From Synechococcus sp. NOUM97013 (GTDB taxonomy: Bacteria > Cyanobacteriota > Cyanobacteriia > PCC-6307 > Cyanobiaceae), in contig NZ_CP047941.1 of NCBI RefSeq assembly GCF_014279815.1, forward strand, positions 682,001-746,000: a stretch of DNA of 64,000 nucleotides. The letters run 5' to 3'. The notes below the pieces were generated by a model. That model did not search any database. It saw only the letters and a program-made list of their open reading frames with translations, and was not told the DNA's origin. Made by a program: the position numbers and the translations under genes. This document shows, one piece after another, positions 38,797-55,715 of this stretch. Every line of letters begins with the position of its first letter. Position 1 is the first letter of the stretch.

Positions 38797-39251
38797 TGGA
38801 GCTGCCGCCTCAGAACCTGCCAATCGAAGCGCGATGGTGTCTGGACCAGAGGCCCTCACTGTGCGTTTCCCTGGAAGTGGCTGACACGGCCAGGGAACAG
38901 CAGCTGGGCTTGATGCAACGGCCGGCGCTGCCACCGCTGCGTGGCATGTGGTTTCCGGTGACGCCGTCTCAGCCGCTGCGCTTTTGGATGCACAACACCC
39001 TTGCTCCGCTGGACATGGTGTTTGTGCGCGATGGCAAGGTGCTGGACGTCGCGGCGCAGGTGCCGGTCTGCCCCGGGCTGCCATGCCCGTCGCACTGGGC
39101 GGATGCCGATCAGAACGGCCGTGCTGACTTCGTCGATGGTGTGATCGAGATCGGCGCCGGCGAGGCAGAACGATTGGGCATTCGCCCGGGTGATCCTGTG
39201 CTGATCGCACCGATTCGGATTGCACCCTCTGACACGTCTTTGACGCGCTGA
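38796..39251 (+). CDS. DUF192 family protein
   Basis: A 151-aa protein with the DUF192 core: VADTAREQQLGLMQRPAL, RGMWFPVTPSQPLRFWMHNT and LAPLDMVFVRDGKVLDVAAQ. It then has FVDGVIEIGAGEAERLGIRP and a terminal beta strand. Usually such proteins are exported, but no strong signal peptide is visible here. Function is unknown. It starts on the stop codon of the preceding regulator (TGATG), implying coupling. Confidence 0.85.
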   Translation: MELPPQNLPIEARWCLDQRPSLCVSLEVADTAREQQLGLMQRPALPPLRGMWFPVTPSQPLRFWMHNTLAPLDMVFVRDGKVLDVAAQVPVCPGLPCPSHWADADQNGRADFVDGVIEIGAGEAERLGIRPGDPVLIAPIRIAPSDTSLTR

Positions 39252-39297
39252 TGCTCCTTAGGTGTAACGAAGACGTGCTTTTGGGCGTGTCGAGGTG

Positions 39298-39420
39298 TTA
39301 GCCGAAGAAGCCCTTGGATTGCAGAAACAGGCCGACGGCGATCAGGGGGCCAAACCCCGCGATCAGCAAGGTGATCTTCATGCGCATCGGCGAGACCTGC
39401 TTGTCTTTCTGAAGCGGCAT
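39298..39420 (-). CDS. Small membrane protein downstream of cobL (40 aa)
   Basis: From the ATG at 39420 this frame encodes a basic start MPLQKDKQVSPMRMKITLL, one hydrophobic helix of about 20 residues (ITLLIAGFGPLIAVGLFLQ), and the end SKGFFG. It begins 3 bp after the cobL stop on the same strand, so it is probably translated from the same mRNA. The positive N-terminus and single helix point to a genuine membrane microprotein. No known family is recognised. Confidence 0.65.
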   Translation of the reverse strand: MPLQKDKQVSPMRMKITLLIAGFGPLIAVGLFLQSKGFFG

Positions 39421-39423
39421 GGA

Positions 39424-40704
39424 TCAGGGGTGCGTGATCGTCGATTCTGAAGCGCCGGGCCGGAGCTTGCGGCCCTGCAGCACCAGAACCGGGTTCATCG
39501 GCGACAACCGCGTCCCCTCCGCCAGGGGCATCCCGCGCCAGCTCTGATGTTGGTGCATGCGCACGCTCCAGCCGGCTTCGCTCAGCAGTGGCCGCAGTTC
39601 CGCCACGGCTTCCAGGGTGGCCATGGGAATCACCACCACCCCGCCAGGCTTCATACGCGCGATCACCGCCTGCAGCAGCGCTTGGCGTTGACGGCCGCCG
39701 CCACCCAGCAGCACCCGGTCGGGATCGGGCAGTTGCTCCAGAACGGAGAGCGCATCACCCTCGAGCACCGCTGCTGGCTGCACCCCCAGGCGCCGGGCGT
39801 TGGCCTGGATCAGCCGGCCGCCGCCGCTGCGTCGCTCCACCGCCATCAGCTGCAGCTGCGGTTGCAGCCGCAAGGCTTCCAGCCCGACGCTGCCGGTGCC
39901 AGCCCCCAGGTCCCAAAGCACCCCAGCAGCAGGCAACTCGAGCTCGGCCAGCAGCTGGATGCGCACCTCCCGCTTGGTCATCAGGCCGGGACGGTCGTCG
40001 TGCTGGAGATACACACCGTCTTCGATGCCAAATAAGGGCAGCTGGTCAGGGATCGGCTCCGCCGCTGGCTCCGCCAGCAGCACCACCAGGTGCAGGGGGT
40101 TGAGGTCGCTGGGGATTGCATCGGAGGGAGCCAGTTTCTGCACCCGTTCGTCCCCATGGCCGAGGGCTTCGCACAGCCACAGGCCGTAGCTGGCTTGGAG
40201 GCTGCTGCTTTGCAGGATGCTGCGCACGTCGGCCAAACCACCGCGGCTCGGATCGGTGAGCACCGCCAGGGCGCTGGGGCGTTGCTGCAGGCGGCGCGCC
40301 AAAGGAGCTGGGTCGCGTCCATGCAGGCTGATCCACTCGGCGTTCTGCCAGGGCCGGCCCAGGCGTGCGAAGGCCAGTTGCAGCGAACTCGGCCCTGGAT
40401 GGAAGCGCAGGCTGTCGCGGCCCAGGCGTTCGATCAGGATCCTGCCGATGCCGAACCAGAGCGGATCACCACTGGCCAGCACCACCGCCTGCTGATCCGG
40501 CTCCAGCGTCAGCAGTGCGTCGCAGAGGGCAATCGGATCGTCGCTGGCGATCCAGTGCAGGTTGGAAGGGCATCCCGGCCACTGTTGCAATGCCGGCAGC
40601 ATGCGTTTCGGTGCAGCCACCAGGTGGGCCTGTTGCACCAGCCGCTGACCCGCAGGCGGGAGTGTGTCAGGAGCGCCAGCGTCAGTGCCGATCACATCGA
40701 TCAT
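39424..40704 (-). CDS. cobL: Precorrin-6Y C5,15-methyltransferase (CbiE-CbiT fusion)
   Basis: A 426-aa bifunctional enzyme of cobalamin synthesis that methylates C5 and C15 and decarboxylates the C12 side chain. The N-terminal CbiE tetrapyrrole methylase begins MIDVIGTDAGAPDTLPPAGQ from the ATG at 40704 and includes VVLASGDPLWFGIGRIL. The C-terminal CbiT domain has the SAM motif LWDLGAGTGSVGLEALRL and GGGGRQRQALLQAVI. The open frame upstream of 40704 is not needed. It shares a 145-bp intergenic region with the divergent DUF1254 gene. Confidence 0.94.
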   Translation of the reverse strand: MIDVIGTDAGAPDTLPPAGQRLVQQAHLVAAPKRMLPALQQWPGCPSNLHWIASDDPIALCDALLTLEPDQQAVVLASGDPLWFGIGRILIERLGRDSLRFHPGPSSLQLAFARLGRPWQNAEWISLHGRDPAPLARRLQQRPSALAVLTDPSRGGLADVRSILQSSSLQASYGLWLCEALGHGDERVQKLAPSDAIPSDLNPLHLVVLLAEPAAEPIPDQLPLFGIEDGVYLQHDDRPGLMTKREVRIQLLAELELPAAGVLWDLGAGTGSVGLEALRLQPQLQLMAVERRSGGGRLIQANARRLGVQPAAVLEGDALSVLEQLPDPDRVLLGGGGRQRQALLQAVIARMKPGGVVVIPMATLEAVAELRPLLSEAGWSVRMHQHQSWRGMPLAEGTRLSPMNPVLVLQGRKLRPGASESTITHP

Positions 40705-40849
40705 GCAGCCATTGTGCTGGGCTGACGCTCCAGATTTTCGCTCCATGCCAGGCCTTCGCTGCATGGGCTGATCCCGATGGTGCGAAGTGCCGGTGATCAA
40801 TCCCCAGCTTGTCTGACGTCGTAGGTCGTTTTGGCTAGGACGTCGACAA

Positions 40850-41977
40850 ATGCTTGTTTCCGACATGACTGCGCCTCGTCATTCGTTGCGCCACGTCTCT
40901 GCGCTGTTGGCGTCTGCCTTGGGTGCCGGCGGATTGCTGATCTCCGCATCGCCGATGGCGATGGCCCAAGCCTCCGGAGCCGCATGCCCGAAGGCTGCTG
41001 TGGTGGAAACAGCGACATCCGTGACGCCGGTCACCAAGGCGAATTACGCCAGTGCTGAAACCGAAGTGATCCTTGCGGATTACGTGCGCAAGATCGCCAA
41101 GGGCACGTGCAGTGATGGCGTCGGTGTTTTCTTCCACCAGCGTGCAGCGATGGATCCCAATGAACGCACGATCCTGCGCCCCAATTTCGACACCCTCTAT
41201 TCCTTTGCGGTGCTCGACCTTGAGAGTCCCGCCACCGTGGTTCTGCCTGAGACGGATCGCTACCAGATCCTCGAAGTGATCGATGAAGACCACTGGATCC
41301 CGCTGATCAGCGACAAACCAGGCAGCTACACCCTCACCCAGGAGTCGGTGGGCAGCCGCTATGCCTTTGCCTTCGTGCGCACCCAGGTGAATGTGCAGGA
41401 TCCTGCTGATGTGAAAGCGGCAGGGGCTGTTCAGGATCAGATCGTTCTGCAGCAAGCCGAAAAGGGCAGCTTCGTGTCGCCCAAGCGCTATGAGATGCAG
41501 GAAATTCTCGATTTGCGTGCTGACTACAACGCACGCCGGGAGCCTGAAGGTGTGACGTCTGAAATGGCGTTTGGCAAGAAAGGAGAACTCAGCGAGGAAA
41601 TGCGCAATTTCGGCGTCGCCGTGGGCTGGGGTGGTCTGCCCAAGCAGGGGGCTGTGTATCCCTTCCCCAAGGTGGTGAACTCCACTGAGCCTCAGGTGTT
41701 GGTGCTCAAAGATGTGCCCATTGACCCTCGGGCGTTCTGGTCGGTCACCGTCTACGACGAGAAAGGTTTTGCTGTTGGCGAGAGCTACAACATCAACAGT
41801 GCTTTCGCCAAAGCCAATGACAAGGGTGAATACGTGATTCACCTTGGCGGTGATCCAAGCCAAGACAATTTCATGGATATCTACCCCGGTTGGAATGCGG
41901 CGGTGCGGATCTATTCGCCCACCGAGGCCTATTTCAACGGCACCTGGACGCCTCCTGAATTTGAGCCGGCCCAGTGA
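40850..41977 (+). CDS. Exported DUF1254/DUF1214 protein, short type, copy 1
   Basis: A 375-aa protein. The start at 40850 has an AGGA site nine bases upstream; the ATG at 40865 is an alternative. The signal peptide runs through ALGAGGLLISASPMAMAQA. The N-terminal DUF1254-like part contains LRPNFDTLYSFAVLDLESPA, with the conserved N-D-T-L-Y block, and the C-terminal DUF1214-like part contains FWSVTVYDEKGF and GWNAAVRIYSPTEAYFNGTW. Function is unknown. The next gene is a clear paralogue. It opens the accessory block that ends in the sulfatase and lies divergent from cobL. Confidence 0.82.
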   Translation: MLVSDMTAPRHSLRHVSALLASALGAGGLLISASPMAMAQASGAACPKAAVVETATSVTPVTKANYASAETEVILADYVRKIAKGTCSDGVGVFFHQRAAMDPNERTILRPNFDTLYSFAVLDLESPATVVLPETDRYQILEVIDEDHWIPLISDKPGSYTLTQESVGSRYAFAFVRTQVNVQDPADVKAAGAVQDQIVLQQAEKGSFVSPKRYEMQEILDLRADYNARREPEGVTSEMAFGKKGELSEEMRNFGVAVGWGGLPKQGAVYPFPKVVNSTEPQVLVLKDVPIDPRAFWSVTVYDEKGFAVGESYNINSAFAKANDKGEYVIHLGGDPSQDNFMDIYPGWNAAVRIYSPTEAYFNGTWTPPEFEPAQ

Positions 41978-42030
41978 TCGCTTGATCCTGCCTTGTTGAT
42001 GCTTTGTTCTGCTCGTTTGCTTGTTGGTTG

Positions 42031-43131
42031 ATGAATCGCTGGTCTGTTCGGTTTGCGGCGTCCGTCCTCTGCGGGATGGGCATCACCGCCACATCGTTGC
42101 TGTCACCTCAACAGGGATCGAGGGTGTGGGCTCAGGACTCCAACTGTCCTGAGCCGGCCATCGTTCTCAAGAGTGATGCGGTGGTGCCTGTCACCAAGGC
42201 GAATTTTGCCGATGCTGAAACGCAGACGGCGCTGGTGAAATACGTTGCCAAAGTTGCTGCCGAAACATGCAGCACGGGCATGGGTGTTATCTGGAACGAT
42301 GGCAAAACTGCCGACCCCAAAGACCGCACGGTGATTCGAATCAACTTCGACACCTTGTATTCCTGGTTGATTCTTGACTTGAGCACGCCGGCCACGTTCA
42401 CGCTCCCAGAAACCGATGGTCGCTATCAGAGCGCCATGGTGCTGAATGGGCAGGGCTATGTGTATGTTGAGAAGGAGCCTGGCGATTACACCCTCACGCA
42501 GGATGAGGTGGGCAGTCGGATTGCCCTGGTGGCGTTCCGCACGGGCGTGAACATTCAGGATCCCGATGACGTGGCTCAGGCCCAGGCACTGCAGGCCAAA
42601 TTGTCGGTGAAGCAGGCCAAGACCGGCGAGTTTGTTCAACCCAATCAATGGGATCTTCAGCAGATGCTGGCTCTGCGTGCTGCTTACAACCAGGAGCGCA
42701 ACGATAAGGGTGTGAAATCGGAATCGCTCTTTGGCCGCCCCGGTGAGATCACCCCAGAGCAGAACAACATGGGTGTTGCCGTCGGAATCGGCGGCTTGCC
42801 CAAAGAGGGTGCTGTGTATTTGTTCTACACACCCACATCCACCGATCCCCAGACGCTCACACTGCGGGATGTTCCCAATGGGGACAATGCCTTTTGGTCG
42901 TTAACGGTGTATGACAAGGATGGTTTTCCAAGTGGGGACAACTTCAATCTCAACAGCGCCTTTGCCAAGACCAACCCGGATGGTGATGTGGTGATCAACC
43001 TGGGTGGAAACAGCGACCAAGAGAACTATCTGGAGATTTATCCGGGCTGGAATGCCACGCTGCGGATCTACAACCCGACACCCGCTTATTTTGACGGCTC
43101 TTGGGTACGCCCCGAGCTTCAGATCAAGTAA
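42031..43131 (+). CDS. Exported DUF1254/DUF1214 protein, short type, copy 2
   Basis: A 366-aa paralogue of the preceding gene from the ATG at 42031 (MNRWSVRFAASVLCGMG), with a signal peptide ending near SRVWAQ. It shares long colinear similarity with copy 1: VTKANFADAETQTALVKYV, IRINFDTLYSWLILDLSTPA, EVGSRIALVAFRTGVNIQDP, FWSLTVYDKDGFPSGDNF and EIYPGWNATLRIYNPTPAYF. The pair most likely arose by tandem duplication. Two Cys (NCPEP and AETCSTGMG) correspond to two in copy 1, perhaps a disulfide. Function is unknown. Confidence 0.82.
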   Translation: MNRWSVRFAASVLCGMGITATSLLSPQQGSRVWAQDSNCPEPAIVLKSDAVVPVTKANFADAETQTALVKYVAKVAAETCSTGMGVIWNDGKTADPKDRTVIRINFDTLYSWLILDLSTPATFTLPETDGRYQSAMVLNGQGYVYVEKEPGDYTLTQDEVGSRIALVAFRTGVNIQDPDDVAQAQALQAKLSVKQAKTGEFVQPNQWDLQQMLALRAAYNQERNDKGVKSESLFGRPGEITPEQNNMGVAVGIGGLPKEGAVYLFYTPTSTDPQTLTLRDVPNGDNAFWSLTVYDKDGFPSGDNFNLNSAFAKTNPDGDVVINLGGNSDQENYLEIYPGWNATLRIYNPTPAYFDGSWVRPELQIK

Positions 43132-43151
43132 AACTTGGACTGAAAGTTGGA

Positions 43152-43175
43152 AAGCCGGGGAGACCGCCCGGGCTT
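43152..43175 (+). terminator. Possible weak terminator after DUF1254 copy 2
   Basis: An imperfect hairpin pairs AAGCCGGG with CCC-G-GGCTT (one bulged G) across a short loop. Only two T follow, so it is a weak candidate. The gap from 43132 to 43351 otherwise holds no gene I can support. It is AT-richer near 43250-43350 and presumably contains the promoter of the next DUF1254 gene. Confidence 0.4.
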
Positions 43176-43351
43176 GTTAATGGACTTGATTGAAGGATGT
43201 CTCCTCGCTGAATGGTGCTGAGGACTTGTCACGCAAGTTGCTACGACGAGGCATTCATATCTTTATTCAATGCCTCCTGACTGCTTGCTCCCGATTGGGC
43301 AGTTTTTGATTGCCTTTGTTTTTCTTTTCTTGCTTGCTGGCTAGACAAAGA

Positions 43352-44941
43352 ATGAAAATCATTGTCAGCGATTTGGGTATGTCAGGTGTCTCCCGCCACT
43401 GGCGCAGGCGTTCCTCAGCCTTGCTCCTTTCTGCATTGGCATTGGCCACCGTTGGTGCAACCAGCCATGGCGTGAAGGCGCAGGTGCCTGAGGGCTACAC
43501 CACGCCGATCCCGGAAGAGTTGTTAACGCCCGACCAGGTGAACACCAGTGTGGGCACCTTCCGCTTCTTTGATGGCATGCCCGATGCCGCCACGGTTGAT
43601 ACCAGCTTTGACAATCTCAAGTTCATCCGTGCGTATGAGACCTTCCTCACGATGATGCCTGCGGCCAGCATTGAGATGCTGCGTGCAGGTCATGCTGGGA
43701 TGGGGGTGGATGCCTACAACAAAGTGATGTTGCTGGCACCGCTGAATTCCAATCCGCTGTTTCTCACTGGTAATACCGACACGGTCTATGGCTCGACCTT
43801 CTTCAATCTGAAGGAGACCGGTCCGATGGTGATCGAAATCCCAGCCGGCCTCGGTCCTGGAACCATCAACGATGCCTTTTTCCGGTTTGTGGCAGATACC
43901 GGTGCTCCGGGGCCAGACCGCGGCAAGGGTGGAAAATACCTGATACTGGGCCCGGATGATGCAGAGCCGGCGAACACCGACGGCTACTTTGTGTTCCGCT
44001 CTCCCAGTTACTCCAATTGGTTGATTCTGAGAGCCTTCCTTGATGATGAGGGTCAGCCTGATCAGGCTGTCGCGAACTACAAAGAAGGGCTCAGGCTCTA
44101 TCCTCTTTCGCTGCAAGATAATCCTCCTCCAATGACCTTTATTCAGGGAGGGGAGGGTATCTTCAATACGGTGCATGCAAACAATTTCCACTTCTTTGAA
44201 GAGCTGAACACGGTGATTCAGCGCGAGCCGATCAACCTGCTTGACCCCGAGCTCAGAGGCCTGGCCTCAGCGATTGGCCTGGAAAAAGGAAAGCCTTTTG
44301 CACCCAGTGCGCAGGATCGCGCTCTGCTTGAAGAAGCGGTGCAGGTGGGTGTTGCTTATGTGCGTTCTGACATGGGCAAGCCGCGCAATTCCGACGTCTA
44401 TTTCTATGAGGGCAAGCAGTGGTTCACGCCGTTTGGGGGTGGCAGCCACGAATGGTTGATTGATGGCGGCAAAGGGGGTCGCAATCTCGACGCCCGCAAC
44501 AATTTCTTCTGGGGTTACACCGTCAACACGCCAGCCATGGTGTTGAAGATGGTGGGCGTTGGCTCCCAGTACGGGGTTGTGGCGACGGATGCCAATGGTG
44601 CCTATCTCGATGGCAGCAAGACCTACAAATTCACGGTTGATGCTGACGTCCCGGCCAAGGACTTCTGGTCGATGGTGGTTTATGACCCCCAGACCCGTTC
44701 GGAGCTGCAGACGGATCAGTTGCTTCCCAGTAAGAACAGCAAGCGCAATCAAGACATGGTCGTGAATGCAGACGGCACCATAGATCTGTATTTCGGGCCT
44801 TCTGCTCCGGAGGGCAAGGAAGCCAACTGGATCCAGACGGTTCCTGACAAGGGCTGGTTCGCTGTGTTCCGTCTCTATGGGCCGCTACAGCCCTGGTTCG
44901 ATAAAACCTGGCAGCTCAACGATATTCAGCCTCTCGGTTGA
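43352..44941 (+). CDS. Exported DUF1254/DUF1214 protein, long type, copy 1
   Basis: A protein of about 529 aa with signal peptide SALLLSALALATVGATSHGV ending VKAQ. The start may be the ATG at 43352 (MKIIVSDLG) or at 43379 (MSGVSRHWRRRSS), the latter giving a more typical n-region. DUF1254 features are FLTMMPAASIEMLRAGHA and LFLTGNTDTVYGSTFFNLK; DUF1214 features are KDFWSMVVYDPQTRSELQTD and GKEANWIQTVPDKGWFAVFR. It contains MVIEIPAGLGPGTINDAFFR between them. It differs from the 375-aa type by an inserted central region. Function is unknown. Confidence 0.82.
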   Translation: MKIIVSDLGMSGVSRHWRRRSSALLLSALALATVGATSHGVKAQVPEGYTTPIPEELLTPDQVNTSVGTFRFFDGMPDAATVDTSFDNLKFIRAYETFLTMMPAASIEMLRAGHAGMGVDAYNKVMLLAPLNSNPLFLTGNTDTVYGSTFFNLKETGPMVIEIPAGLGPGTINDAFFRFVADTGAPGPDRGKGGKYLILGPDDAEPANTDGYFVFRSPSYSNWLILRAFLDDEGQPDQAVANYKEGLRLYPLSLQDNPPPMTFIQGGEGIFNTVHANNFHFFEELNTVIQREPINLLDPELRGLASAIGLEKGKPFAPSAQDRALLEEAVQVGVAYVRSDMGKPRNSDVYFYEGKQWFTPFGGGSHEWLIDGGKGGRNLDARNNFFWGYTVNTPAMVLKMVGVGSQYGVVATDANGAYLDGSKTYKFTVDADVPAKDFWSMVVYDPQTRSELQTDQLLPSKNSKRNQDMVVNADGTIDLYFGPSAPEGKEANWIQTVPDKGWFAVFRLYGPLQPWFDKTWQLNDIQPLG

Positions 44942-44978
44942 GATTTAAATCGATCTATTTCACTTTTCCACCTCAACC

Positions 44979-46532
44979 ATGACTGTTTTCAAGCATCTCC
45001 CATCCACTGTTCTTTCTGCCTTGTTTCTGGCATGCAGCGGCTCTGCACTTCACGCGGCTGATGTGATGCCCAAGGGCTACAACACGCCCATTCCTGTGGA
45101 TGTGTTGACCCCGGATTCGGTGACCACTCGAATCGGCACCTTCAATTATTTCGATGGTTTCCCCGATGACGAAACCATGCGCAAGGCCCGCCGTCAGGTG
45201 GACCTGGGCCGCGGTGTTCAGACCTTCCTGAATTTCATGCCGGCAGCCTCCATTGAGATGCTGTATGTGGGGCATCGCGATGGCTATGGCCTTCAGACCA
45301 ACCGAGATATCGGTGTGTTTGAAGACCTGATGAGTTCGGAGTCTCTCTGGCTCACAGGCAACACCGACACGGTGTACGCCTCCGCTTTCATTGACCTGAG
45401 CGATGGCCCGATGGTGGTTGAGGTGCCAGCAGGCACGGGCCCGGGAACGGTGAATGATGCCTTTTTCCGCTTCGTGATCGACATGGGTGGCCCTGGTCCG
45501 GACAAGGGCCGAGGCGGCAAGTATCTGATTCTTGGGCCCGGTCAGGAGGCTCCTGCCGATGCGGGTGATTATTACGTTGCCAGCACACCAAGCTTGATCA
45601 ACTGGGTGATTCTGCGTGGTTTCCTGGATGCGCAAGGCAGCACGGAGACAGCCAAAAATGCCTTCAAGAACGATCTCAAGATCTATCCCTATGCCCAGCG
45701 GGCCAATCCCGCACCGAATAAGTACATGAACCTCACCGGTTTGAATGTGAACACCATTCATGCCAACGACTTCAAGTTTTACGAGGAGCTGGATGATGTG
45801 ATCCAGCGTGAACCGTCGGAGGTGTTCTCCCCAGAACTGCTGGGAATGGCCTCAGCCATTGGCATTCAAAAAGGCAAGGCCTTCAATCCATCGCCTGAAC
45901 GCAAGGCATTGCTCACCGATGCGGTTGCCATCGGTAATGCCACCGCCCGTTCGATCCTGTTTGCCCCCCAGGACCCCAAGGCCTACATCTATCCCGGTAA
46001 AGCGGGGTACTGGCAGACCGGATTCCCCGGAGGCAGTCACGAATATCTCGTGAATGGCGGCAATGGTGGGCGCGACATGGATGGACGCACCCTGTTCTTC
46101 TACCTGGCCACGGTGAACACCCCGGCGATGGCTCTGGAACTGCCGGGCGTTGGTTCGCAATACGCCTTCAGTTCCAGAGACAGCAGCGGTGCCTATCTCG
46201 ATGGAGGCAACTCCTACAAACTCACCATCCCCGCCAATCCCCCAGCGGAACGCTTCTGGTCGTTTGTGGTCTACGACCCGCAAACCCGCTCGATGCTGCA
46301 GAGCGACGCAATGCCATACCCCAGCAAGAACAACAAGCGCAACACCGACATGGTGGAGAACGCCGATGGCAGCATCACGCTCTACTTCGGTCCGGAAGCG
46401 CCGGAAGGCTTGGAGGCCAATTGGGTGAAAACGGTTCCAGGTAAGGGTTGGTTCGGTATCTTCCGCCTCTACGGCCCAGGTCAGGAGTGGTTTGACCGCA
46501 CCTGGAAGCTCGGAGCGATTGAAAAAATCTGA
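44979..46532 (+). CDS. Exported DUF1254/DUF1214 protein, long type, copy 2
   Basis: A 517-aa tandem paralogue of the preceding gene, 37 bp away. The signal peptide is MTVFKHLPSTVLSALFLACS with cleavage near LHAAD. It shares GYNTPIPVDVLTPDSVTTRI, NFMPAASIEMLYVGHRDGYG, WLTGNTDTVYASAFIDLSDG, FWSFVVYDPQTRSMLQSDA and EANWVKTVPGKGWFGIFRLY with copy 1. The conserved blocks include many acidic and aromatic residues but no known catalytic triad. Function is unknown. It precedes the amine oxidase gene by 82 bp. Confidence 0.82.
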   Translation: MTVFKHLPSTVLSALFLACSGSALHAADVMPKGYNTPIPVDVLTPDSVTTRIGTFNYFDGFPDDETMRKARRQVDLGRGVQTFLNFMPAASIEMLYVGHRDGYGLQTNRDIGVFEDLMSSESLWLTGNTDTVYASAFIDLSDGPMVVEVPAGTGPGTVNDAFFRFVIDMGGPGPDKGRGGKYLILGPGQEAPADAGDYYVASTPSLINWVILRGFLDAQGSTETAKNAFKNDLKIYPYAQRANPAPNKYMNLTGLNVNTIHANDFKFYEELDDVIQREPSEVFSPELLGMASAIGIQKGKAFNPSPERKALLTDAVAIGNATARSILFAPQDPKAYIYPGKAGYWQTGFPGGSHEYLVNGGNGGRDMDGRTLFFYLATVNTPAMALELPGVGSQYAFSSRDSSGAYLDGGNSYKLTIPANPPAERFWSFVVYDPQTRSMLQSDAMPYPSKNNKRNTDMVENADGSITLYFGPEAPEGLEANWVKTVPGKGWFGIFRLYGPGQEWFDRTWKLGAIEKI

Positions 46533-46540
46533 GCGTTGCA

Positions 46541-46567
46541 GGCATGGCTCTTCACGCTTGCCATGCC
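46541..46567 (+). other. Hairpin between DUF1254 copy 4 and amine oxidase
   Basis: An 8-bp perfect inverted repeat GGCATGGC/GCCATGCC (46541-46548 and 46560-46567) with an 11-nt loop lies nine bases after the stop at 46532. No U-tract follows. It could be a processing or attenuation structure, or simply chance. Confidence 0.4.
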
Positions 46568-46614
46568 GATGCTCATGACCTGACTGCTTGCCCTCTTATT
46601 CAATTGAATGTCTC

Positions 46615-47964
46615 ATGGCTCAATCTGTTGATGTGGTTGTGATTGGCGGTGGTTTCGCCGGCATCACAGCAGCCCGTGATCTGCAAAAACGGGGTTTCAA
46701 AGTGCTCGTTCTGGAAGCGCGTGACCGGCTGGGTGGGCGCACCTGGAGTGAGGATCGCAATGGCTTTCATGTGGAGCTGGGCGGCACCTGGGTGCATTGG
46801 ACCCAGCCCTTTGTGTGGGCCGAAAAGGAGCGTTACGGCCTCGAGGTGCAAGAGACGCCAGGGTGTGTTGCTGAACGGGTGTCGATCAAAATTGATGGCC
46901 AGGTTCAGGAGCTGCAGGAGTCGCAGCTGGGTGAATTCGTCGAGGGCTTTGAACGCTTCTTCGCCGAGGCGAAGGGCGTGTGGGAGCGTCCCTATGACGC
47001 GCACCACTGCTGGGATGCGCTGTGTGAACGCGATGGTCTGACCGTCGCTGATCGATTCAATGCTCTTGAGCTCACGCCCTTGCAGCGCACCAGCATCGGC
47101 GGATTTCTGGAGATCCTCTGCATGAATCAACCGCAGAATGCCTCCTATGTGGAGATGATGCGCTGCTGGTCGCTCACCGGTTGGAATTACGAGCTGTTCA
47201 ACGACACTGCCGCTCGTTACAAGTTCACCAAGGGCACCGGTGCCTTGGTGGAGGCGATGGCCCGTGACGGTGGTTTCGATGTGAGTTTGAACTCACCTGT
47301 GCGGTCCGTTCAGCAATCCGATCAGGGCGTTTGTGTCACTACGGAATCGGGTGAACTGGTGATCGCCAAGCGGGCGGTGGTGACCGTGCCGCTGAATGTG
47401 CTGCACAACGTGGCGTTTGAACCACCTCTCTCCGAGGTGAAGTTGGAAGCGTCCCGCCTCAAGCACGTCGGCGGTGGCTACAAGGTGTTCTTTGAAGTGG
47501 AGGGTGACCCCGGTGCGGTGATGACCTTGTCCCGTTCCACCGATTCACCGCTGATCGGCAGCTTCACCTACAAACGTGGTGAACAGCACTCCGTGCTGGC
47601 TGGTTTCAGTCTGGAACCGGGAGCTCTGGATAAGTCGGTGGAGGAATGGCAGGTGGTGCTGGAGGAATTCATCCCCGGCGTGAGGTTGCTGTCCACCTTC
47701 GGGCACGACTGGGGTGCAGACGATCTTTCCCAGGGCAGCTGGGCCACCTATCGGCCTGGAACCGTGGCCCGCTTCAACGATGAGCTGCCGCGCCAGGAAG
47801 GCCACGTTTTCTTTGCTTCTGGCGACCATGCCCAGGGCTGGCGCGGATTCATTGAAGGAGCCATTGCCAGTGGCTCCCGAACGGCTGTAACGGTGGCCGA
47901 CAGCCTGAGCGCTCAGGCTGCCGGTGCCTCGGCGGAATCAGTCAAACAGCCAGCGCAGGCCTAG
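46615..47964 (+). CDS. FAD-dependent amine oxidase (monoamine oxidase family)
   Basis: A 449-aa flavoprotein. The FAD motif VVVIGGGFAGITAARDLQKR is at the N-terminus, followed by VLEARDRLGGRTWSEDRNGF, typical of the amine oxidase superfamily. The C-terminal flavin segment HVFFASGDHAQGWRGFIEGA matches the MAO pattern GxxxxWxGxxEGA. No signal peptide is present, so it is cytoplasmic. The start is the ATG at 46615. The real substrate (monoamine, polyamine or amino acid) is unknown. The 3' end overlaps the convergent outer-membrane gene by 27 bp. Confidence 0.85.
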   Translation: MAQSVDVVVIGGGFAGITAARDLQKRGFKVLVLEARDRLGGRTWSEDRNGFHVELGGTWVHWTQPFVWAEKERYGLEVQETPGCVAERVSIKIDGQVQELQESQLGEFVEGFERFFAEAKGVWERPYDAHHCWDALCERDGLTVADRFNALELTPLQRTSIGGFLEILCMNQPQNASYVEMMRCWSLTGWNYELFNDTAARYKFTKGTGALVEAMARDGGFDVSLNSPVRSVQQSDQGVCVTTESGELVIAKRAVVTVPLNVLHNVAFEPPLSEVKLEASRLKHVGGGYKVFFEVEGDPGAVMTLSRSTDSPLIGSFTYKRGEQHSVLAGFSLEPGALDKSVEEWQVVLEEFIPGVRLLSTFGHDWGADDLSQGSWATYRPGTVARFNDELPRQEGHVFFASGDHAQGWRGFIEGAIASGSRTAVTVADSLSAQAAGASAESVKQPAQA

Positions 47965-48957
47965 GTTCACGCCGCTTTGATCCACGCTGTAGGAGTTGCC
48001 ACCTCCTCCGGCGTAATCAAGGCCGAAATACTTGTAGGAGAGGGAGATCTGAGCTGAGTTCCCCAGGGCATAGGCAATGCCTGCCTGAGCGGTTCCACTC
48101 AGATCCTGCTCTCCACTCAGACCGAAACCGCCTGCATCGAGGTAGGCAAAGGCTTGCCAGTCTTCACTGATGGCGTAGGTGCCAAACACACCAATCAACG
48201 GTTGAACCCAGGTGTTGCCGTAGCTTTCACCGGATGATTTCTCCAGCTCACGGGTGTATTCCTTGCTGACGCGTCGTCCTTCCACGCTGAGTGAGGCTTC
48301 GCTGTCCAGCGTCCAGCTGGTGTTGATGTTGGCATCGATGATGCGAGCTCCCACCAGGCCGATGAAGCTGCTGCTGCCCTTCTCCATGCGTGGTTTCTGA
48401 ATGGCGCCCCCCCGGTAGCGGAAGGCCAGATCCACGATGGTTTGGTTGGCGTCAACGTCGAGATCCAGATCACCTTTCACCTTCAGGGTGCGCTCGCGCA
48501 GATAGCCAGGAACGCCGAGCTGATTGCGCAAAGGGTTGTTGGTTTCCTTGTAGAAGGACGCCGATTGACTGTCGGACAGGCTGCCGTGATAGACACCAGC
48601 CATGAAGCCCAAGCGGCCATACTCCACCTGCGCTTTGAAGGTGAGCGCCTCATTGATGGTGTCGAGCACATCGGAGATCGGAAGCGCTGCCTTGGATTTG
48701 TTGCCGTTGATCTCAGTGGTTGAGTAGGTGGTGGGCACCAAGAAGGCATAGAGATCGAGGTACACCCGCCAGGAATCTTCTTCGTCTTCGTCCGGTGTCA
48801 CTTCAAGTTCAACCTCTTCGGCCTGGCTGAGTACCAGCGGAGTGGTGAAGTCTGCAGCACTCGTCTCTTCAGCCGAGACGTTCTCGAGGGGCTTGGCTGC
48901 AACCTCCACAGTCAAGGTGCTCAGAGTTGCCAGAAGAGCCAGAGACAGCGCGCGCAT
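47938..48957 (-). CDS. Predicted outer-membrane beta-barrel protein
   Basis: A 339-aa protein from the ATG at 48957 with signal peptide MRALSLALLATLSTLTVEVA. It continues with an acidic linker (ELEVTPDEDEEDSWRV) and a beta-rich body with alternating patterns such as VYLDLYAFLVPTTYSTTEIN, LKVKGDLDLDVDANQTIVDL, QISLSYKYFGLDYAGGGG and the ending VNLGLRWLFD. The C-terminal aromatic strand is typical of outer-membrane proteins. No specific family is recognised. It lies between the amine oxidase and a second barrel protein. Confidence 0.75.
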   Translation of the reverse strand: MRALSLALLATLSTLTVEVAAKPLENVSAEETSAADFTTPLVLSQAEEVELEVTPDEDEEDSWRVYLDLYAFLVPTTYSTTEINGNKSKAALPISDVLDTINEALTFKAQVEYGRLGFMAGVYHGSLSDSQSASFYKETNNPLRNQLGVPGYLRERTLKVKGDLDLDVDANQTIVDLAFRYRGGAIQKPRMEKGSSSFIGLVGARIIDANINTSWTLDSEASLSVEGRRVSKEYTRELEKSSGESYGNTWVQPLIGVFGTYAISEDWQAFAYLDAGGFGLSGEQDLSGTAQAGIAYALGNSAQISLSYKYFGLDYAGGGGNSYSVDQSGVNLGLRWLFD

Positions 48958-49104
48958 CGCAGTCAAGAATGATTTTCGCGAACCGTAGGGGCGGCGCGGA
49001 CTCTCTGCTTTTAAAGCTGGTCCCAATCGTGCGGAATTATTGCGGCAAGGATTGGTCCTTGGCGAAGCAAGCTGTAAACAACGCCCATTAATGAAGCCAG
49101 ATTG

Positions 49105-50151
49105 ATGCTGTTCCGCCTGCTCATGACTCGCAACGTCTCTTGGCTTCTCGGTCTTGCTGCCCTGTTGGTTCCCACCTCTGTTGCGGCCCAGGACCAAGCC
49201 CAAACGCTGGTCTCCAATCCTGCTGATTTTGATTTCACTCCCCTGGAGCTGACCGAGCTGAAGTTGGCCCAGGCGCCGGATGCTGAGCAACCGCCAGGCA
49301 CCGGTAATCAACCGGTCACCGTTTCCCCAGATGAATCGCTTGGGCAGGAGGAGGATTCACTGGCGCAGGCGGCCCAGAACCCGATTGCCAGCCTGATCAG
49401 TGTGCCGATTCAGTGGAATTCGACGCCCAACACCCAGTGGGCACCGAACGTCACGCTTCCATCGCCGAATCCAAACGATCCACCCATTTCCACCAACTTC
49501 AAGGCGAATCAAACCCAGAACGTGGTGAACGTTCAGCCGGTGGTTCCCTTCAAGGTGAACGATGGCCTCACGTTGGTGACGCGCACGATCGTTCCCTTCA
49601 TCTCCCAACCCTGGGCGCGTGGAACCTCGATTCAAGCGATCGGAGACATCAATCCGTCGGTGTTCTTCGTGCCCACGATGAAGGGCAATTTCACCGTGGG
49701 TGTTGGTCCCACGTTGGTGATGCCAACCGCAACGGACAGCCGCCTGAGTTCCCAGCGTTGGAGTGCCGGCCCTTCCGGTGTTCTGGTTTACACCAAGGGC
49801 CCGATTGTGGCGGGTGGTCTGATCAATAACATCTGGTCGTTTGCCGGTGAAGGCAAGAGTGATGTCAACAAGATGTTGATTCAGCCTTTCCTCAACTACA
49901 ACCTGCCCAAGGGTTGGTATCTCACCAGCTCCCCGATCATCACGGCGGACTGGAACTCGGAAGACAACAAGGGCTGGACGGTTCCCGTTGGCCTCGGTGT
50001 GGGACGTGTGTTCGTGTTAGGCACGCAGCCCATCAATGCCTCTCTCAGTGCCTACTACAACGCTGTGAAGCCTGAGGTGCTCGGTCAGACGCTCATCGGC
50101 GATTGGACCTTCCGGGCACAGGTTCAATTCCTGTTCCCCACAGGCGGTTGA
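49105..50151 (+). CDS. Predicted outer-membrane transport-like beta-barrel
   Basis: A 348-aa protein. The start is the ATG at 49105; the ATG at 49123 (MTRNVSWLLGLAALLVPTSV) leaves a neat signal peptide ending AAQ. The body has many amphipathic strands, for example NVVNVQPVVPFKVNDGLTLV, GNFTVGVGPTLVMPTATDS, MLIQPFLNYNLPKGWYLTS and a C-terminal DWTFRAQVQFLFPTGG. It resembles the transporter-like outer-membrane proteins sometimes labelled neuromedin U or phenol-degradation MetA. It is divergent from the other barrel gene, with 147 bp between starts. Confidence 0.72.
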   Translation: MLFRLLMTRNVSWLLGLAALLVPTSVAAQDQAQTLVSNPADFDFTPLELTELKLAQAPDAEQPPGTGNQPVTVSPDESLGQEEDSLAQAAQNPIASLISVPIQWNSTPNTQWAPNVTLPSPNPNDPPISTNFKANQTQNVVNVQPVVPFKVNDGLTLVTRTIVPFISQPWARGTSIQAIGDINPSVFFVPTMKGNFTVGVGPTLVMPTATDSRLSSQRWSAGPSGVLVYTKGPIVAGGLINNIWSFAGEGKSDVNKMLIQPFLNYNLPKGWYLTSSPIITADWNSEDNKGWTVPVGLGVGRVFVLGTQPINASLSAYYNAVKPEVLGQTLIGDWTFRAQVQFLFPTGG

Positions 50152-50261
50152 TGCTGCTTTGATGGCTGCATTGGCTCATGCATTGATGGCGTTCAAGCCT
50201 TCATCGGGTCAATGCAGTCGTTGTTTTCGAATCATCGTCTCTGCTCAATCCTGTGTCGGCC

Positions 50262-51110
50262 ATGCGTGATCAACGTGCCCCGATGGTGGTGATTCCTGCC
50301 GGGAACTATCGCGTCGGTTCCGAGTCGTTTTATCCAGAAGAATCGCCGGTGCGCTCCATTGATGTGGAGGCATTTGCGATCGATGTGGCACCGGTCACCA
50401 ATGCCGAATTTGCCCGCTTCGTTGCTGATACTGGCTACGTGACGGTGTCTGAAAAGCCACCGGATCCTGAGCTGTATCCCAACCTGCCCCCCGAAGAACA
50501 ATGCCCTGAATCGGCGGTGTTCATTCCACCGCCGCCCAGCGTGGATCGCAGTCAGCCGCTGTCGTGGTGGGCCTTGGTGGAAGGGGCGGATTGGCGCCAT
50601 CCCCAGGGACCGTCCACCAGCATCGATGAGCTGATGGAGCACCCCGTGGTGCATCTTGCCTATGAGGATGCCGTGGCCTATGCCCAGTGGGCGGGGAAAC
50701 GCTTGCCCACCGCCGATGAATGGGAAGTGGCGGCACGTGGTGGTCTGGAGGAGCAGCACTATGCCTGGGGTTCTGAAATGACCCCCGGCGGCCAGTGGTT
50801 GGCCAATGTCTGGCAAGGGCCGTTCCCTTGGATCAATGAACAGGGTGATGGCTGGTTCTGGACCTCTCCTGTCGGCAGCTTCCCTGCCAATGGCTACGGC
50901 TTGCTCGACATGTGTGGGAATGTCTGGGAGTGGACGTCGACCTTGTTCCCAGTTCCCAAAGGTGAACAGGAACGACGGATTATCAAGGGCGGGTCGTTTC
51001 TGTGTGCGGAAAACTACTGCCACCGGTTCCGTCCGGCTGCACTGATGGGCCAGACGACGGACACCGCCACCTGTCACATGGGCTTTCGCTGCGCCTCGGA
51101 TTCAGTGTGA
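50262..51110 (+). CDS. Formylglycine-generating enzyme (sulfatase-activating)
   Basis: A 282-aa FGE-sulfatase-family protein. It converts the active-site Cys of sulfatases to formylglycine. It starts MRDQRAPMVVIPAGNYRVGS from the ATG at 50262, with the family opening pattern. Blocks include DVAPVTNAEFARFVADTGYV, VVHLAYEDAVAYAQWAGKRL, PTADEWEVAARGG and YGLLDMCGNVWEWTSTLF. The catalytic Cys pair C-x4-C is in GGSFLCAENYCHRFRPAA, matching the human FGE pattern. It has no signal peptide. It sits 149 bp before the sulfatase gene, its probable client. Confidence 0.92.
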   Translation: MRDQRAPMVVIPAGNYRVGSESFYPEESPVRSIDVEAFAIDVAPVTNAEFARFVADTGYVTVSEKPPDPELYPNLPPEEQCPESAVFIPPPPSVDRSQPLSWWALVEGADWRHPQGPSTSIDELMEHPVVHLAYEDAVAYAQWAGKRLPTADEWEVAARGGLEEQHYAWGSEMTPGGQWLANVWQGPFPWINEQGDGWFWTSPVGSFPANGYGLLDMCGNVWEWTSTLFPVPKGEQERRIIKGGSFLCAENYCHRFRPAALMGQTTDTATCHMGFRCASDSV

Positions 51111-51259
51111 GCTCGGTTGTGATTGTTCGTTGGTGAGCGCCACAAACTTGAGGCGCTGATCCCAATGGTGCGTTGTTGGTTGATGCTCACACCATTGACG
51201 TCAACTCATGGCTAATCAAGAAAAAGCTCCAAGGCCTCGTTGCCTCTCCAAAGTCTGCT

Positions 51260-53680
51260 ATGCCGAATCTGATCAAAACTCCTCGCTTGCTGCGCCGCCT
51301 GGTCGTTGGTGGTGGATTGTTGCTGGCGACCAGCGTGTCGATTGCCGGCATGACGCAAGGTCATGCCCAGGCTCGTGAATTTGACCGGACGAAACTTCCC
51401 ATCGCAGAGCCAAGGCCTGAAAAGGTCACCAAGGTGCTCCCCTCAGAGGTGCCGTTGCCGCCGCAGTGGGAGGTGACGGCCCCTGCCGGTGCCCCCAATG
51501 TGGTGATCATCCTGCTCGATGATGTGGGGTATGCCGCACCTTCTGCCTTCGGCGGGGTGGTGAACATGCCAACGGCAGAACGGCTCGCTCAGGATGGCCT
51601 GCGCTACAACCGATTCCACACCACGGCCCTCTGTGCGCCGACCCGGGCAGCGTTGAAATCCGGTCGCAATCACCACAAGGTCAACACCGGTTCGATTCCG
51701 GAGGTTGCCACCGGCTACGCCGGCAATTCCACTGTGGTGCCTGACTACGCCATTCCCGTTGCAGAAATCCTCAGACTCAACGGCTACAACACGGCGGCCT
51801 TCGGCAAGTGGCACGAGACGCCGGGCCGCGAAACCACCGCAGCCGGTCCTCAGACCCGCTGGCCCACGCGCCAGGGTTTCGAGAAGTTCTATGGCTTCGT
51901 GGGCGCTGAAGACAACATGTGGGAGCCGACCATCCATGACGGCGTCACCATCGTGGATGCTCCCAAGAAAGATCGTTATCACTTCACGGAAGACATGACC
52001 GATCAGGCGATCGGTTGGGTCCGCCAGCAGAAGGCCATTAAGCCCGATAAGCCCTTCTTTATCTATTACTCCTCAGCCGGTGCTCATTCCCCGCACCATG
52101 TGGGTCAGGAATGGATTGCCAAATACCGCGGCAAATTCGATGAAGGTTGGGATGTACTGCGGGCACGCAATCTTGAGAATCAGATCGAGGCGGGGATTGT
52201 CCCTCCCGGCACCCAGATGGCACAGGCTCCAGACAGTATCCCCAAATGGGATACCCTCACGCCCCAACAGCAGCGAATCTATGCCCGGCAGGCAGAAGTG
52301 TTTGCCGCCTTCACCGAGCATTCTGATTACGAAGCAGGGCGTTTGATTCAAGCCATTGATGATCTCGGCGAGCTGGATAACACCTTGGTGATTTACATCA
52401 CCGGTGATAACGGTGCCAGTGTTGAAGGTGATCGCACCGGTCATTGGAATTGGAACCACTACCTCAATGGCGTTGGCGAAACGCCGGATGAGCAGGAAGC
52501 CAAAATGGATGAATGGGGCGGGCCGACGACCTATCCCATGTATCACATGGCCTGGGCGATCGCGTTCAATTCACCCTTTGCCCTGTCCAAGCAGGTTGCA
52601 GGTGATTTCGGCGGAACCCGCAATGGAACGGTGATTCATTGGCCTGAGCGCATTCGTCAGGGTGGTGGCATTCGTACGCAGTTTTCGCATGTGAATGATG
52701 TGGCTCCCACGATTCTTGAGGCGGCCAATCTGCCGATGCCAACATCAATCAATGGCATCCCGCAGATTCCCATGCAGGGAACCAGCCTGATGTATACCTT
52801 CGATAATCCAGGTGCGAAAGAACGGCACAACACCCAGTATTTCGAAATCATCGGCAACCGCGGCATCTATCACGACGGCTGGATGGCGCGTACAACGATC
52901 ATGTATCCCTGGATGGCGCCCCAACGGATGAACACGGTTGCGGCCGATGATGGTTGGGAGTTGTACGACACCACCGTTGATTTCAGCCTTTCCAATGATC
53001 TCGCGGCTCAGTACCCCGAGCGCTTGGAGGCCATGAAGGCGAAGTTCATGGAAGAGGCGATTGAGAACCAGGTGTTGCCCCTCGACGATCGTTTGCTGGA
53101 GCGTCTGGTGCCTTCCGTTGCCGGCAGGCCGACCCTCTTGGGTGATCGCACCTCGATGGATCTGTACCCCTACGCCTGGAACCTGGTCGAAGATTCGATC
53201 CTCAACGTGAAGAATGTCTCCAACAGTGTGACGGCCTTTGTGGATGTGAAAGGGGGCGATGAAGACGGCGTGATCTTCTCCCAGGGCGGTCGCTTTGGTG
53301 GATGGTCGCTTTACGTCGAAAACAACAGGCCCTCCTACACCTACAACTACATGGGAGAGCTGGTCACCCTCACCAGCAACAAGCCATTGCCTGCTGGTAA
53401 GTCTGAGATTCGCTTTGAGCTCGACTACGACGGTGGCGGCACGGGCAAAGGTGCTGACCTTCGCTTGAAACTGAACGGTGAGGTGGTCGCTGAAGGCCGC
53501 ATGGAAAAGACGATTGCTTCGCGTTTCTCCATCGATGAAGGTGCTGATGTCGGCCTTGATCGTGGCTCGGCGGTCACGGTGCGAACGATTGGTCCACGCC
53601 GTTACAGCGCCTACGGCGGCCAGATCGACAAGGTGACGATTCAGATCTATCCAGAAGCCACCGATGTCGCACAGCAGTGA
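51260..53680 (+). CDS. Exported sulfatase with formylglycine motif
   Basis: An 806-aa sulfatase from the ATG at 51260 (MPNLIKTPRLLRRLVVGGGL). The N-terminus has a twin Arg (LLRRLVV) then a hydrophobic stretch to AGMTQGHAQA, suggesting export, possibly by Tat. The metal-binding Asp pair is in IILLDDVGYAAPSAFGG. The FGly site reads TTALCAPTRAALKSGR, i.e. Cys125 in C-A-P-T-R plus the downstream SGR. Further metal and active-site segments are AAFGKWHETPG and VIYITGDNGASVEGDRTG. A C-terminal lectin-like sandwich (about 660-806) includes GGRFGGWSLYVENNRPSYTY. The desulfated substrate is unknown. Confidence 0.93.
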   Translation: MPNLIKTPRLLRRLVVGGGLLLATSVSIAGMTQGHAQAREFDRTKLPIAEPRPEKVTKVLPSEVPLPPQWEVTAPAGAPNVVIILLDDVGYAAPSAFGGVVNMPTAERLAQDGLRYNRFHTTALCAPTRAALKSGRNHHKVNTGSIPEVATGYAGNSTVVPDYAIPVAEILRLNGYNTAAFGKWHETPGRETTAAGPQTRWPTRQGFEKFYGFVGAEDNMWEPTIHDGVTIVDAPKKDRYHFTEDMTDQAIGWVRQQKAIKPDKPFFIYYSSAGAHSPHHVGQEWIAKYRGKFDEGWDVLRARNLENQIEAGIVPPGTQMAQAPDSIPKWDTLTPQQQRIYARQAEVFAAFTEHSDYEAGRLIQAIDDLGELDNTLVIYITGDNGASVEGDRTGHWNWNHYLNGVGETPDEQEAKMDEWGGPTTYPMYHMAWAIAFNSPFALSKQVAGDFGGTRNGTVIHWPERIRQGGGIRTQFSHVNDVAPTILEAANLPMPTSINGIPQIPMQGTSLMYTFDNPGAKERHNTQYFEIIGNRGIYHDGWMARTTIMYPWMAPQRMNTVAADDGWELYDTTVDFSLSNDLAAQYPERLEAMKAKFMEEAIENQVLPLDDRLLERLVPSVAGRPTLLGDRTSMDLYPYAWNLVEDSILNVKNVSNSVTAFVDVKGGDEDGVIFSQGGRFGGWSLYVENNRPSYTYNYMGELVTLTSNKPLPAGKSEIRFELDYDGGGTGKGADLRLKLNGEVVAEGRMEKTIASRFSIDEGADVGLDRGSAVTVRTIGPRRYSAYGGQIDKVTIQIYPEATDVAQQ

Positions 53681-53708
53681 TGGCTAGTCGTCATTGACTC
53701 CGACCAAT

Positions 53709-53741
53709 GGGATGGCTCTTAATTGGAGTCATCCCTTTTTT
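53709..53741 (+). terminator. Rho-independent terminator after the sulfatase
   Basis: A 10-bp stem GGGATGGCTC/GAGTCATCCC (53709-53718 and 53726-53735, one G-U wobble) with a 7-nt loop is followed by six T. It cleanly ends the FGE-sulfatase unit before the convergent transporter gene. Confidence 0.92.
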
Positions 53742-53753
53742 GTTGGCTGGCTT

Positions 53754-54614
53754 TCATGGGCTGATGTCAGAGGCTGAATCGACCAGGCTCTTGCGCCAGC
53801 GGAGGAAGGGAGTCATGCCGATGGCTGTCATCACCACGTAGCCCACAATGGCCGCCTTCAGCTCGCTCGCCTCCGGTGCCATCTGTTGCACCAAGAGCAG
53901 CGCTAGCCCTGGATTGCGCATGGCCATCACCAGGGGAATCGTGCTTCGTTCTGCGCGGTTGTCGCTGGCGACGCCATAACCCAGAGCCAGAGCAATCAAC
54001 GTGAGCAGCAGCATCAGCGAGGCGCCGCGCAGATCGGCCACCAGCGCCAGAGACACCTTGGGCAGCGCCGCAATTAACACCACGGCCAACAGCACCAAGA
54101 GAAGGATGGACGCGGCTTTCTGAATCACGGGATTCCAGCGTTCGGCCCATGCGCTGCACCAGTGGCGCAGGCTTATGCCCAAAAGCAGCGGCAACACCTG
54201 AACGCTGAACACCTGGGCGGCAACATCCCTGGCGGAGACGCTCCAGAGGCTTTCGGCCGCGTCGATCGGTAACTGGTGGACCCAGAGCGGCACGCTGAGG
54301 ATCGCGGCGCAGGATGAGCACAATTGAAGCCTGGCTGCCAAGGCTGCATTCCCTGCCACCAGCCGACTTTTCAAGCTGATCATCGGAGCACTAGGGCAGA
54401 TCGCCATCAACAGCAAGGCCGTCGCCATGGCCGGTGAGAGCCCATGGCCCAGCGGCGAGCGCAGCAACAGCAGCGCTGCAACAGGGATGCCAATACAAGT
54501 GCAGAGCAACACCCGCAGCAGCCAGCCGACTCTGTGTTTCAGCTGCCCGAACGGCATGGCCGGTGGATGGAGCCCCAACGCCACCATCACCAGAAACAGG
54601 GCCAGCGAAATCAA
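53754..54614 (-). CDS. BASS/SBF-like membrane transporter
   Basis: A 286-aa protein with eight or nine helices resembling the bile acid:sodium symporter superfamily. Recognisable segments are ATALLLMAICPSAPMISLKS, a Pro/Ser-rich kink typical of the fold, QVLPLLLGISLRHW, and STIPLVMAMRNPGLALLLVQ, which matches the conserved MRN-GLAL motif. The start is TTG 54614, five bases after the AraC stop, so it is cotranscribed with the regulator. Substrate is unknown; organic anions are typical of the family. Confidence 0.72.
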   Translation of the reverse strand: MISLALFLVMVALGLHPPAMPFGQLKHRVGWLLRVLLCTCIGIPVAALLLLRSPLGHGLSPAMATALLLMAICPSAPMISLKSRLVAGNAALAARLQLCSSCAAILSVPLWVHQLPIDAAESLWSVSARDVAAQVFSVQVLPLLLGISLRHWCSAWAERWNPVIQKAASILLLVLLAVVLIAALPKVSLALVADLRGASLMLLLTLIALALGYGVASDNRAERSTIPLVMAMRNPGLALLLVQQMAPEASELKAAIVGYVVMTAIGMTPFLRWRKSLVDSASDISP

Positions 54615-54619
54615 GGTCG

Positions 54620-55681: not shown

Positions 55682-55691
55682 ATTCGACTAA
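55665..55691. promoter_or_regulatory. Perfect 10-bp inverted repeat, candidate operator
   Basis: TTAGTCGAAT at 55665-55674 is matched by ATTCGACTAA at 55682-55691 across a 7-nt spacer. It lies at the divergent start region of the AraC gene (start codon inside the spacer) and the sulfotransferase (start 25 bp right of the repeat). The symmetry suggests a binding site for a dimer. No U-tract supports a terminator. Confidence 0.7.
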
Positions 55692-55715
55692 AAGTGACTG
55701 GTTTTTGAAGGCGTG

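Follow-up and report, generated by a model that had tools for sequence, protein, structure and literature searches.

The closest described relatives of the proteins considered here are known mainly as structures. VPA0735 of Vibrio parahaemolyticus, which carries the domains DUF1254 and DUF1214, is deposited under PDB titles (2p3y, 3vb9) that state no function, as are VPA0106 (PDB 3u07) and 6ans; PMC2744874 lists "VPA0735-like" as a fold common to two DUF families. A fungal protein from Malassezia, likened here by domain alone, has DUF1214 (PF06742) and, according to PMC4634964, a signal peptide match and induction under nutrient stress; section 8 of that paper gives it a glycosyl-hydrolase role predicted by modelling. 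An earlier note on the DNA analysed here had called the family one without known function, which is nearly right: this modelling prediction is the sole exception found, and the open-access literature yielded no tested function for DUF1254/DUF1214. A lead that VPA0735 degrades virstatin was dropped, the literature consulted on VPA0735 stating no function. Here, we describe four DUF1254/DUF1214 genes in a 64,000-nucleotide stretch of Synechococcus sp. NOUM97013 (NZ_CP047941.1, positions 682,001 to 746,000; hereafter the window), and we lean, tentatively, to a model whereby they are part of a conserved locus through which sulfated organic compounds are used. On its face this is otherwise ordinary gene-family evolution, with a testable clue to a widespread family. 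What is new is the gene neighbourhood, a stronger clue than the pairing and one that the earlier note had not used. The four genes, with positions counted within the window and ORF denoting open reading frame, are:

40865 to 41977, plus strand: shA, short DUF1254/DUF1214 protein (ORF from 40850; Pfam, orthologue clade in the tree)
42028 to 43131, plus strand: shB, short DUF1254/DUF1214 protein (ORF 42004-43131, start uncertain at ~42028; Pfam, tree)
43376 to 44941, plus strand: loA, long DUF1254/DUF1214 protein (ORF from 43310; Pfam, trees)
44979 to 46532, plus strand: loB, long DUF1254/DUF1214 protein (37 bp after loA; Pfam, trees)

The starts of shA (40865), shB (~42028) and loA (43376) are internal ones picked by hand, which for loA shortens the product from 543 aa to ~521 aa. 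The reading as two tandem pairs holds up: the ORFs lie on the same strand, PF06863 (DUF1254) and PF06742 (DUF1214) score over the curated Pfam cut-offs in all four proteins, and codon-aligned identity is 48.6% for shA/shB and 54.1% for loA/loB, against 23.6-25.9% between the short and long class. The DUF1254 match is weaker in the short pair (E-values 2e-13 and 1e-11) than in the long pair (1e-24 and 2e-25), and none of the four proteins is matched by an NCBIfam model at E 0.001. A search of the whole 2.55-Mb genome at E <= 0.001 finds no DUF1254 genes other than these four at 40850-46532. Each of the four proteins has a hydrophobic N-terminal start in a hydrophobicity scan (as distinct from a signal-peptide predictor), as do 105 of the 119 long and 50 of the 55 short family proteins scanned, window proteins counted in; the four are thus probably exported.

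Our results argue for shA/shB and loA/loB being ancient, non-redundant paralogue pairs with a division of labour rather than a dosage effect. Compared with orthologues, the window genes give ratios of nonsynonymous to synonymous substitution rates (dN/dS) of 0.083-0.117 for shA, 0.057-0.173 for shB, 0.047-0.072 for loA and 0.061-0.090 for loB; comparison genes give 0.033-0.052 (the sulfatase described below), 0.063 (amine oxidase), 0.025 (nadK) and 0.153-0.242 (cobL). Between paralogues the ratio is unusable because synonymous sites are almost saturated, with dS at 1.79 and 2.56 for the two pairs in the window. Decay of one copy per pair, which the earlier note had named as a sign against its proposal, is not seen in the window, where all four genes are constrained (dN/dS 0.05-0.17). 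That proposal had offered selection for dosage or for divergent substrates. Dosage predicts similar copies, whereas these are old, different (46-51% divergence) and each constrained, which argues against it; divergent roles fit.

Structure prediction was carried out for one protein per class with AlphaFold (mean predicted local distance difference test, pLDDT, 85 for shA and 90 for loB), and both models match the fold of solved family members at Z 20-46. The loB model aligns with VPA0735 over 455 residues (Z 46.5, root-mean-square deviation (rmsd) 2.2) and with VPA0106 over 375 (Z 26.0, rmsd 5.8), while the shA model aligns with VPA0106 over 285 (Z 24.0, rmsd 3.5) and with VPA0735 over 299 (Z 20.1, rmsd 4.8); the next rows in the structure search are unrelated proteins at Z ~6. 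Across its two PDB entries VPA0735 has the loB fold at Z 44-46 and 30-31% identity. Among the other solved folds, VPA0106 and 6ans come nearest to the short class (Z 24.0 and 14.2), with which they share only 14-20% identity. Because the shA and loB models match the same solved proteins, the two classes share one architecture, the VPA0735/VPA0106 fold, beyond the sequence blocks that they have in common.

The pairs are older than the genome that carries them. The earlier note had spoken of repeated duplication within a small genome, but the duplications did not take place in this one: both pairs have orthologues throughout the genus and in further genera of the family. DUF1254 is present in 26 of the 31 genus genomes surveyed (our own included), and orthologues of loA and loB occur in the same 23 of the 31, never one alone, with loB broken in G018 (80% complete). 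Among 21 related loci with both genes intact, the loA-loB gap is 37 bp in 15, 36 bp in one and negative in five, negative values arising where the most upstream start was taken. From 229 distinct family ORFs, cuts on score and length left 119 for a long tree and 55 for a short tree; a careful long tree holds 56 hand-chosen sequences of the 119. In the careful tree, loA and loB each form their own clade (100/100), with another family genus (g30) branching first, and the two clades are sisters, with Shimodaira-Hasegawa-like approximate likelihood ratio test (SH-aLRT) support of 90 in the long tree and 91/78 in the careful one. The short copies form a single clade of 41 (100/99), set against just 14 other short relatives in the tree. 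Its shA side has 24 members (96/90), including a third branch of three, and its shB side has 17 (81/58, or 100/99 minus one outlier). The phylogeny keeps the pairing, with the sisterhood of loA and loB favoured but short of proof. Fetched loci were compared for 24 genomes besides our own: 21 contain shA and 13 contain shB, which lies away from the cluster in three of the 13 and is split into two ORFs in one (G015).

A tandem origin of loA and loB has to be weighed against their separate acquisition from related bacterial donors, a question of origin that conflicts with none of the functional readings below. Trees with loA or loB nearer to other bacteria stay unrejected by the approximately unbiased (AU) test: forcing loB there costs 5.4 log units (p-AU 0.0697) and forcing loA costs 3.6 (p-AU 0.224). 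The best trees make the two sisters, and the genes adjoin with the same 37-bp gap in 15 of 21 loci, so that we regard separate acquisition, which the earlier note had named as its refuter, as improbable. Because the rival trees cost this little, we prefer a duplication in this lineage but do not take it as proven.

The neighbourhood of the pairs comprises the following genes:

46615 to 47964, plus strand: FAD amine oxidase (ORF from 46588; PF01593; amine oxidase relatives in the PDB)
47941 to 48969, minus strand: OMPr, no Pfam family over cut-off (divergent from OMP2; signal-like start by eye; conserved in place)
49126 to 50151, plus strand: OMP2, barrel-like presumed outer-membrane protein (ORF from 49102; no Pfam match at E<=1)
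50253 to 51110, plus strand: formylglycine-generating enzyme (FGE) homologue (PF03781, E 6e-75)
51254 to 53680, plus strand: arylsulfatase, ~808 aa (ORF from 51173; PF00884; arylsulfatases in the PDB; CAPTR at residue 127)
53754 to 54614, minus strand: sodium/bile-acid-symporter-family (SBF/BASS) transporter (PF01758)
54620 to 55681, minus strand: AraC-family regulator (PF12833)
55713 to 56798: sulfotransferase near the sulfatase (PF13469)
59112 to 61634: GBA2-type glucosylceramidase-like gene near the sulfatase (hand reading of the sequence)

The sulfatase combines PF00884 with the C-x-P-x-R motif of type I (formylglycine) sulfatases, here CAPTR, and is predicted to be a Cys-type arylsulfatase with sulfate-ester activity; the motif was found neither in L198, its relative from Mesorhizobium, nor in the fragment from L112. 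OMP2 is presumed to form an outer-membrane barrel. At E<=1, PF13557 (Phenol_MetA_deg) matches neither the window protein nor its relatives in L081, L091, L092, L093, L106, L110, L191 and L205. The OMP2 family, which has no Pfam match, recurs near DUF1254, and plasmid records name its members "transporter" or "hypothetical protein".

An organosulfate locus with the DUF1254 proteins at a periplasmic step would explain the recurring neighbours most simply. Starting from the domains, fold class, pairing, constraint and neighbourhoods described here, our model supposes export, a barrel, a sulfate-ester substrate and each of the following steps. OMP2 would admit a sulfated compound into the periplasm, where the DUF1254 proteins would bind or cleave it, with loA and loB as partners and shA/shB concerned with a different form or step; the FGE-activated arylsulfatase would take off the sulfate, and the SBF-type carrier, and possibly the amine oxidase, would handle the products. 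A bolder version, which we consider quite doubtful, would make DUF1254/DUF1214 proteins periplasmic enzymes of a new class, or enzyme-like binders, that work in obligate unlike pairs and pass sulfated organics from a Pfam-less barrel family to an FGE-dependent arylsulfatase. The repeated association of DUF1254/DUF1214 with a single arylsulfatase subfamily and a single barrel-like family points to a concrete substrate class; if the organosulfate model is right, marine picocyanobacteria, mainly seen as plain phototrophs, would hold a dedicated route for sulfated organic matter. The open-access literature search found no paper naming DUF1254 together with a sulfatase. Section 8 of PMC4634964 describes a Chlamydomonas relative as strongly up under sulfur depletion, and PMC9361551 reports a sulfatase cluster, not necessarily the one in the window, that is present in freshwater and absent from marine picocyanobacterial strains.

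The sulfatase and the glucosylceramidase-like gene could also mean that the locus dismantles a sulfated polysaccharide, with the DUF1254/DUF1214 proteins as glycoside hydrolases or sugar binders. The modelling prediction for the Malassezia relative points the same way, as does a weak similarity of the shA model to beta-galactosidase accessory domains (Z 5.9-6.1). By the structure tool's own note, however, Z ~6 is the level of common arrangements, and no Pfam glycoside-hydrolase domain is present in any of the four proteins. We consider this reading unlikely.

Support for the organosulfate model comes from co-occurrence within the genus. OMP2 is present in 22 of the 23 genomes with loA/loB (in G030 as a contig-end fragment) versus one of the eight without (Fisher p 2e-5), an amine oxidase orthologue in 19/23 (in G009 a fragment) versus 0/8 (p 6e-5), and a sulfatase orthologue (81% or more) in 15/23 versus 1/8 (p 0.015), p values that ignore shared descent and physical linkage and include the two fragments as positives. 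A second OMP2 relative, 44-48% identical, occurs in eight genus genomes. In our own, 1.66 Mb separate it from the DUF1254 genes, and G001 has it with no DUF1254, so the OMP2 family is not always linked to DUF1254.

Beyond the genus, DUF1254/DUF1214 is present in many phyla and is patchy, with DUF1254 in 20 of 81 sampled genomes of the family and in 11 of 146 of the phylum. Our cross-phylum set holds 36 loci (L080-L116 minus L100) from many phyla, including one cyanobacterium, with L089 and L094 from one genome; the counts leave out the Synechococcus rows L100 and L072-L079, which except for L077 repeat genus-survey genomes. All 36 were found via similarity to loB and are therefore no sample of the whole family. 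A second set holds 28 loci from 21 cyanobacterial genomes outside the genus, some of these loci being limited to short or strongly diverged DUF1254 genes. Across both, the window sulfatase subfamily is near DUF1254 in 13 of 64 loci, and so is the OMP2 family (13/64). OMP2 accounts for 8/36 cross-phylum loci, always on the strand of the DUF1254 gene and within ~1.2 kb in seven (8.3 kb in L105); in L093 the nearby DUF1254 gene is a diverged copy below the first score cut. The sulfatase subfamily is found in 5/36 (L080, L088, L089, L093 and L112), in L088 as a partial ORF detected by BLAST only and in L089 on both sides; the sulfatase-superfamily genes of L086, L091, L094 and L108 fall outside the subfamily profile. 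At L080:62-2470 the arylsulfatase is split into two ORFs and directly precedes a DUF1254 gene. Among the 28 cyanobacterial loci, the sulfatase subfamily lies 0-4.2 kb from DUF1254 in eight and OMP2 0-7 kb away in five (one a weak partial match), the loA-loB pair itself being present in three of each. We also counted OMP2 copies in eight hand-chosen genomes, six of them picked because OMP2 was already seen beside DUF1254 at a locus: they hold 0-6 copies each, 14 matches in total, and nine of the ten with E<1e-60 are within ~2.5 kb of a DUF1254 domain by hand-read distances. Once the loci on which the choice of genomes was based are set aside, this is true of three of eight copies (three of the four strong ones).

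These recurrences bear on a further possibility, namely that the DUF1254/DUF1214 proteins serve some general function, exported or in the envelope, that has nothing to do with sulfate esters and that the sulfatase is close because accessory genes hitch-hike in a shared island. The patchiness of the family suits this idea, as do the GC content of the four genes (56-58% versus 61% for the window), the other genus DUF1254 loci without a sulfatase and the absence of the tie from the sulfatase side. It is less easily squared with the recurrence of the same arylsulfatase subfamily and OMP2 family beside DUF1254 in unrelated phyla, and with extra OMP2 copies in the same genomes of which some also adjoin DUF1254. 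We consider hitch-hiking somewhat unlikely.

Several observations weigh against the organosulfate model itself. The genus counts are not independent, and eight of the 23 loA/loB genomes lack an orthologous sulfatase (G011, G014, G018, G022, G023, G024, G027 and G030), three of them being 70-80% complete and two holding only a 38% relative. In G010 and G029 the sulfatase is on another contig than loA/loB; FGE was not found in the fetched loci of five pair-bearing genomes (G010, G011, G023, G027 and G029), and, at the thresholds used, OMP2, sulfatase and amine oxidase are all missing from 13 other DUF1254 loci of the genus. Independent cyanobacterial sulfatase cases shrink to about four, because L148, L150 and L151 carry loA-loB and L165/L166 are of one genus. 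Export is not universal in the family, since the long relatives L080, L093 and L101 have no hydrophobic start. Seawater is rich in sulfate, and sulfur hunger is therefore an unlikely motive.

Plasmid regions for the most part add to these objections. Ten sulfatase-side regions were hand-picked from 25 listed of 85 records, and eight OMP2-side regions from two listings of 147 records. The sulfatase-side regions have FGE in four, an SBF carrier in two and a DUF1254 gene in one, 3.6 kb off; the OMP2 family is in none of the ten by annotation and six-frame profile scan, the "transporter" beside the Mesorhizobium sulfatase belonging to another family, PF13557. On the OMP2 side, DUF1254 occurs in two regions, two genes upstream in Ensifer canadensis and three genes upstream in Sinorhizobium M14, and a sulfatase in two, both outside the window subfamily: in Pseudochrobactrum FGE and a more distant sulfatase adjoin OMP2, and in Rhizobium T1473 a distant sulfatase is ~3 kb off. 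Neither DUF1254 nor a sulfatase was found in the other four (one unannotated and scanned by profile only). Starting from DUF1254, the S. meliloti and Rhodococcus regions have other neighbours, and in an Agrobacterium region retrieved with shA an OMP2 gene lies at a distance of 5.9 kb. In favour of the model, two Nostoc plasmids (L194, L195) carry FGE, arylsulfatase and SBF carrier consecutively, close to sulfonate or taurine genes (ssuC on one plasmid and TauD on the other). These are the same three gene kinds as in the window, and the sulfatases are 47-48% identical to the window's, but the carriers reach just 25-28% identity, over a part of their length, and no DUF1254 is detected by annotation or profile scan. 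Because sulfatase and OMP2 often occur without DUF1254 and without each other, the tie is one-sided.

Six genus genomes have a second, diverged long DUF1254 cluster (L034, L036, L038, L052, L058 and L065), with one gene 27-32% identical to the window genes and, in five of the genomes, another at 44-46%. It has no OMP2 and no window-type sulfatase; one L065 copy is split by a stop, and the edge of L036 carries an amine-oxidase relative of 30% identity. DUF1254 matches also fall within open frames of 838-1017 aa in G002, G003, G005, G008, G014, G022, G023, G025, G028 and G030.

Across 42000-46000 the GC content dips to 0.55, compared with 0.61 for the window, which would fit a horizontally acquired origin. 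A viral source was considered and rejected: the long-class profile found no relative on viral contigs, and the short class matched ten contigs at 31-35% identity. A scan of 39000-56000 returned no RNA element at gathering score, and promoter-like sites are no commoner than in shuffled sequence (3 versus 3.0). Terminator-like sites number 17, compared with 11.1 (standard deviation 2.8) in shuffles, and four of them cluster at 43155-43315, between shB and loA, suggesting that the short and the long pair may be separate transcripts.

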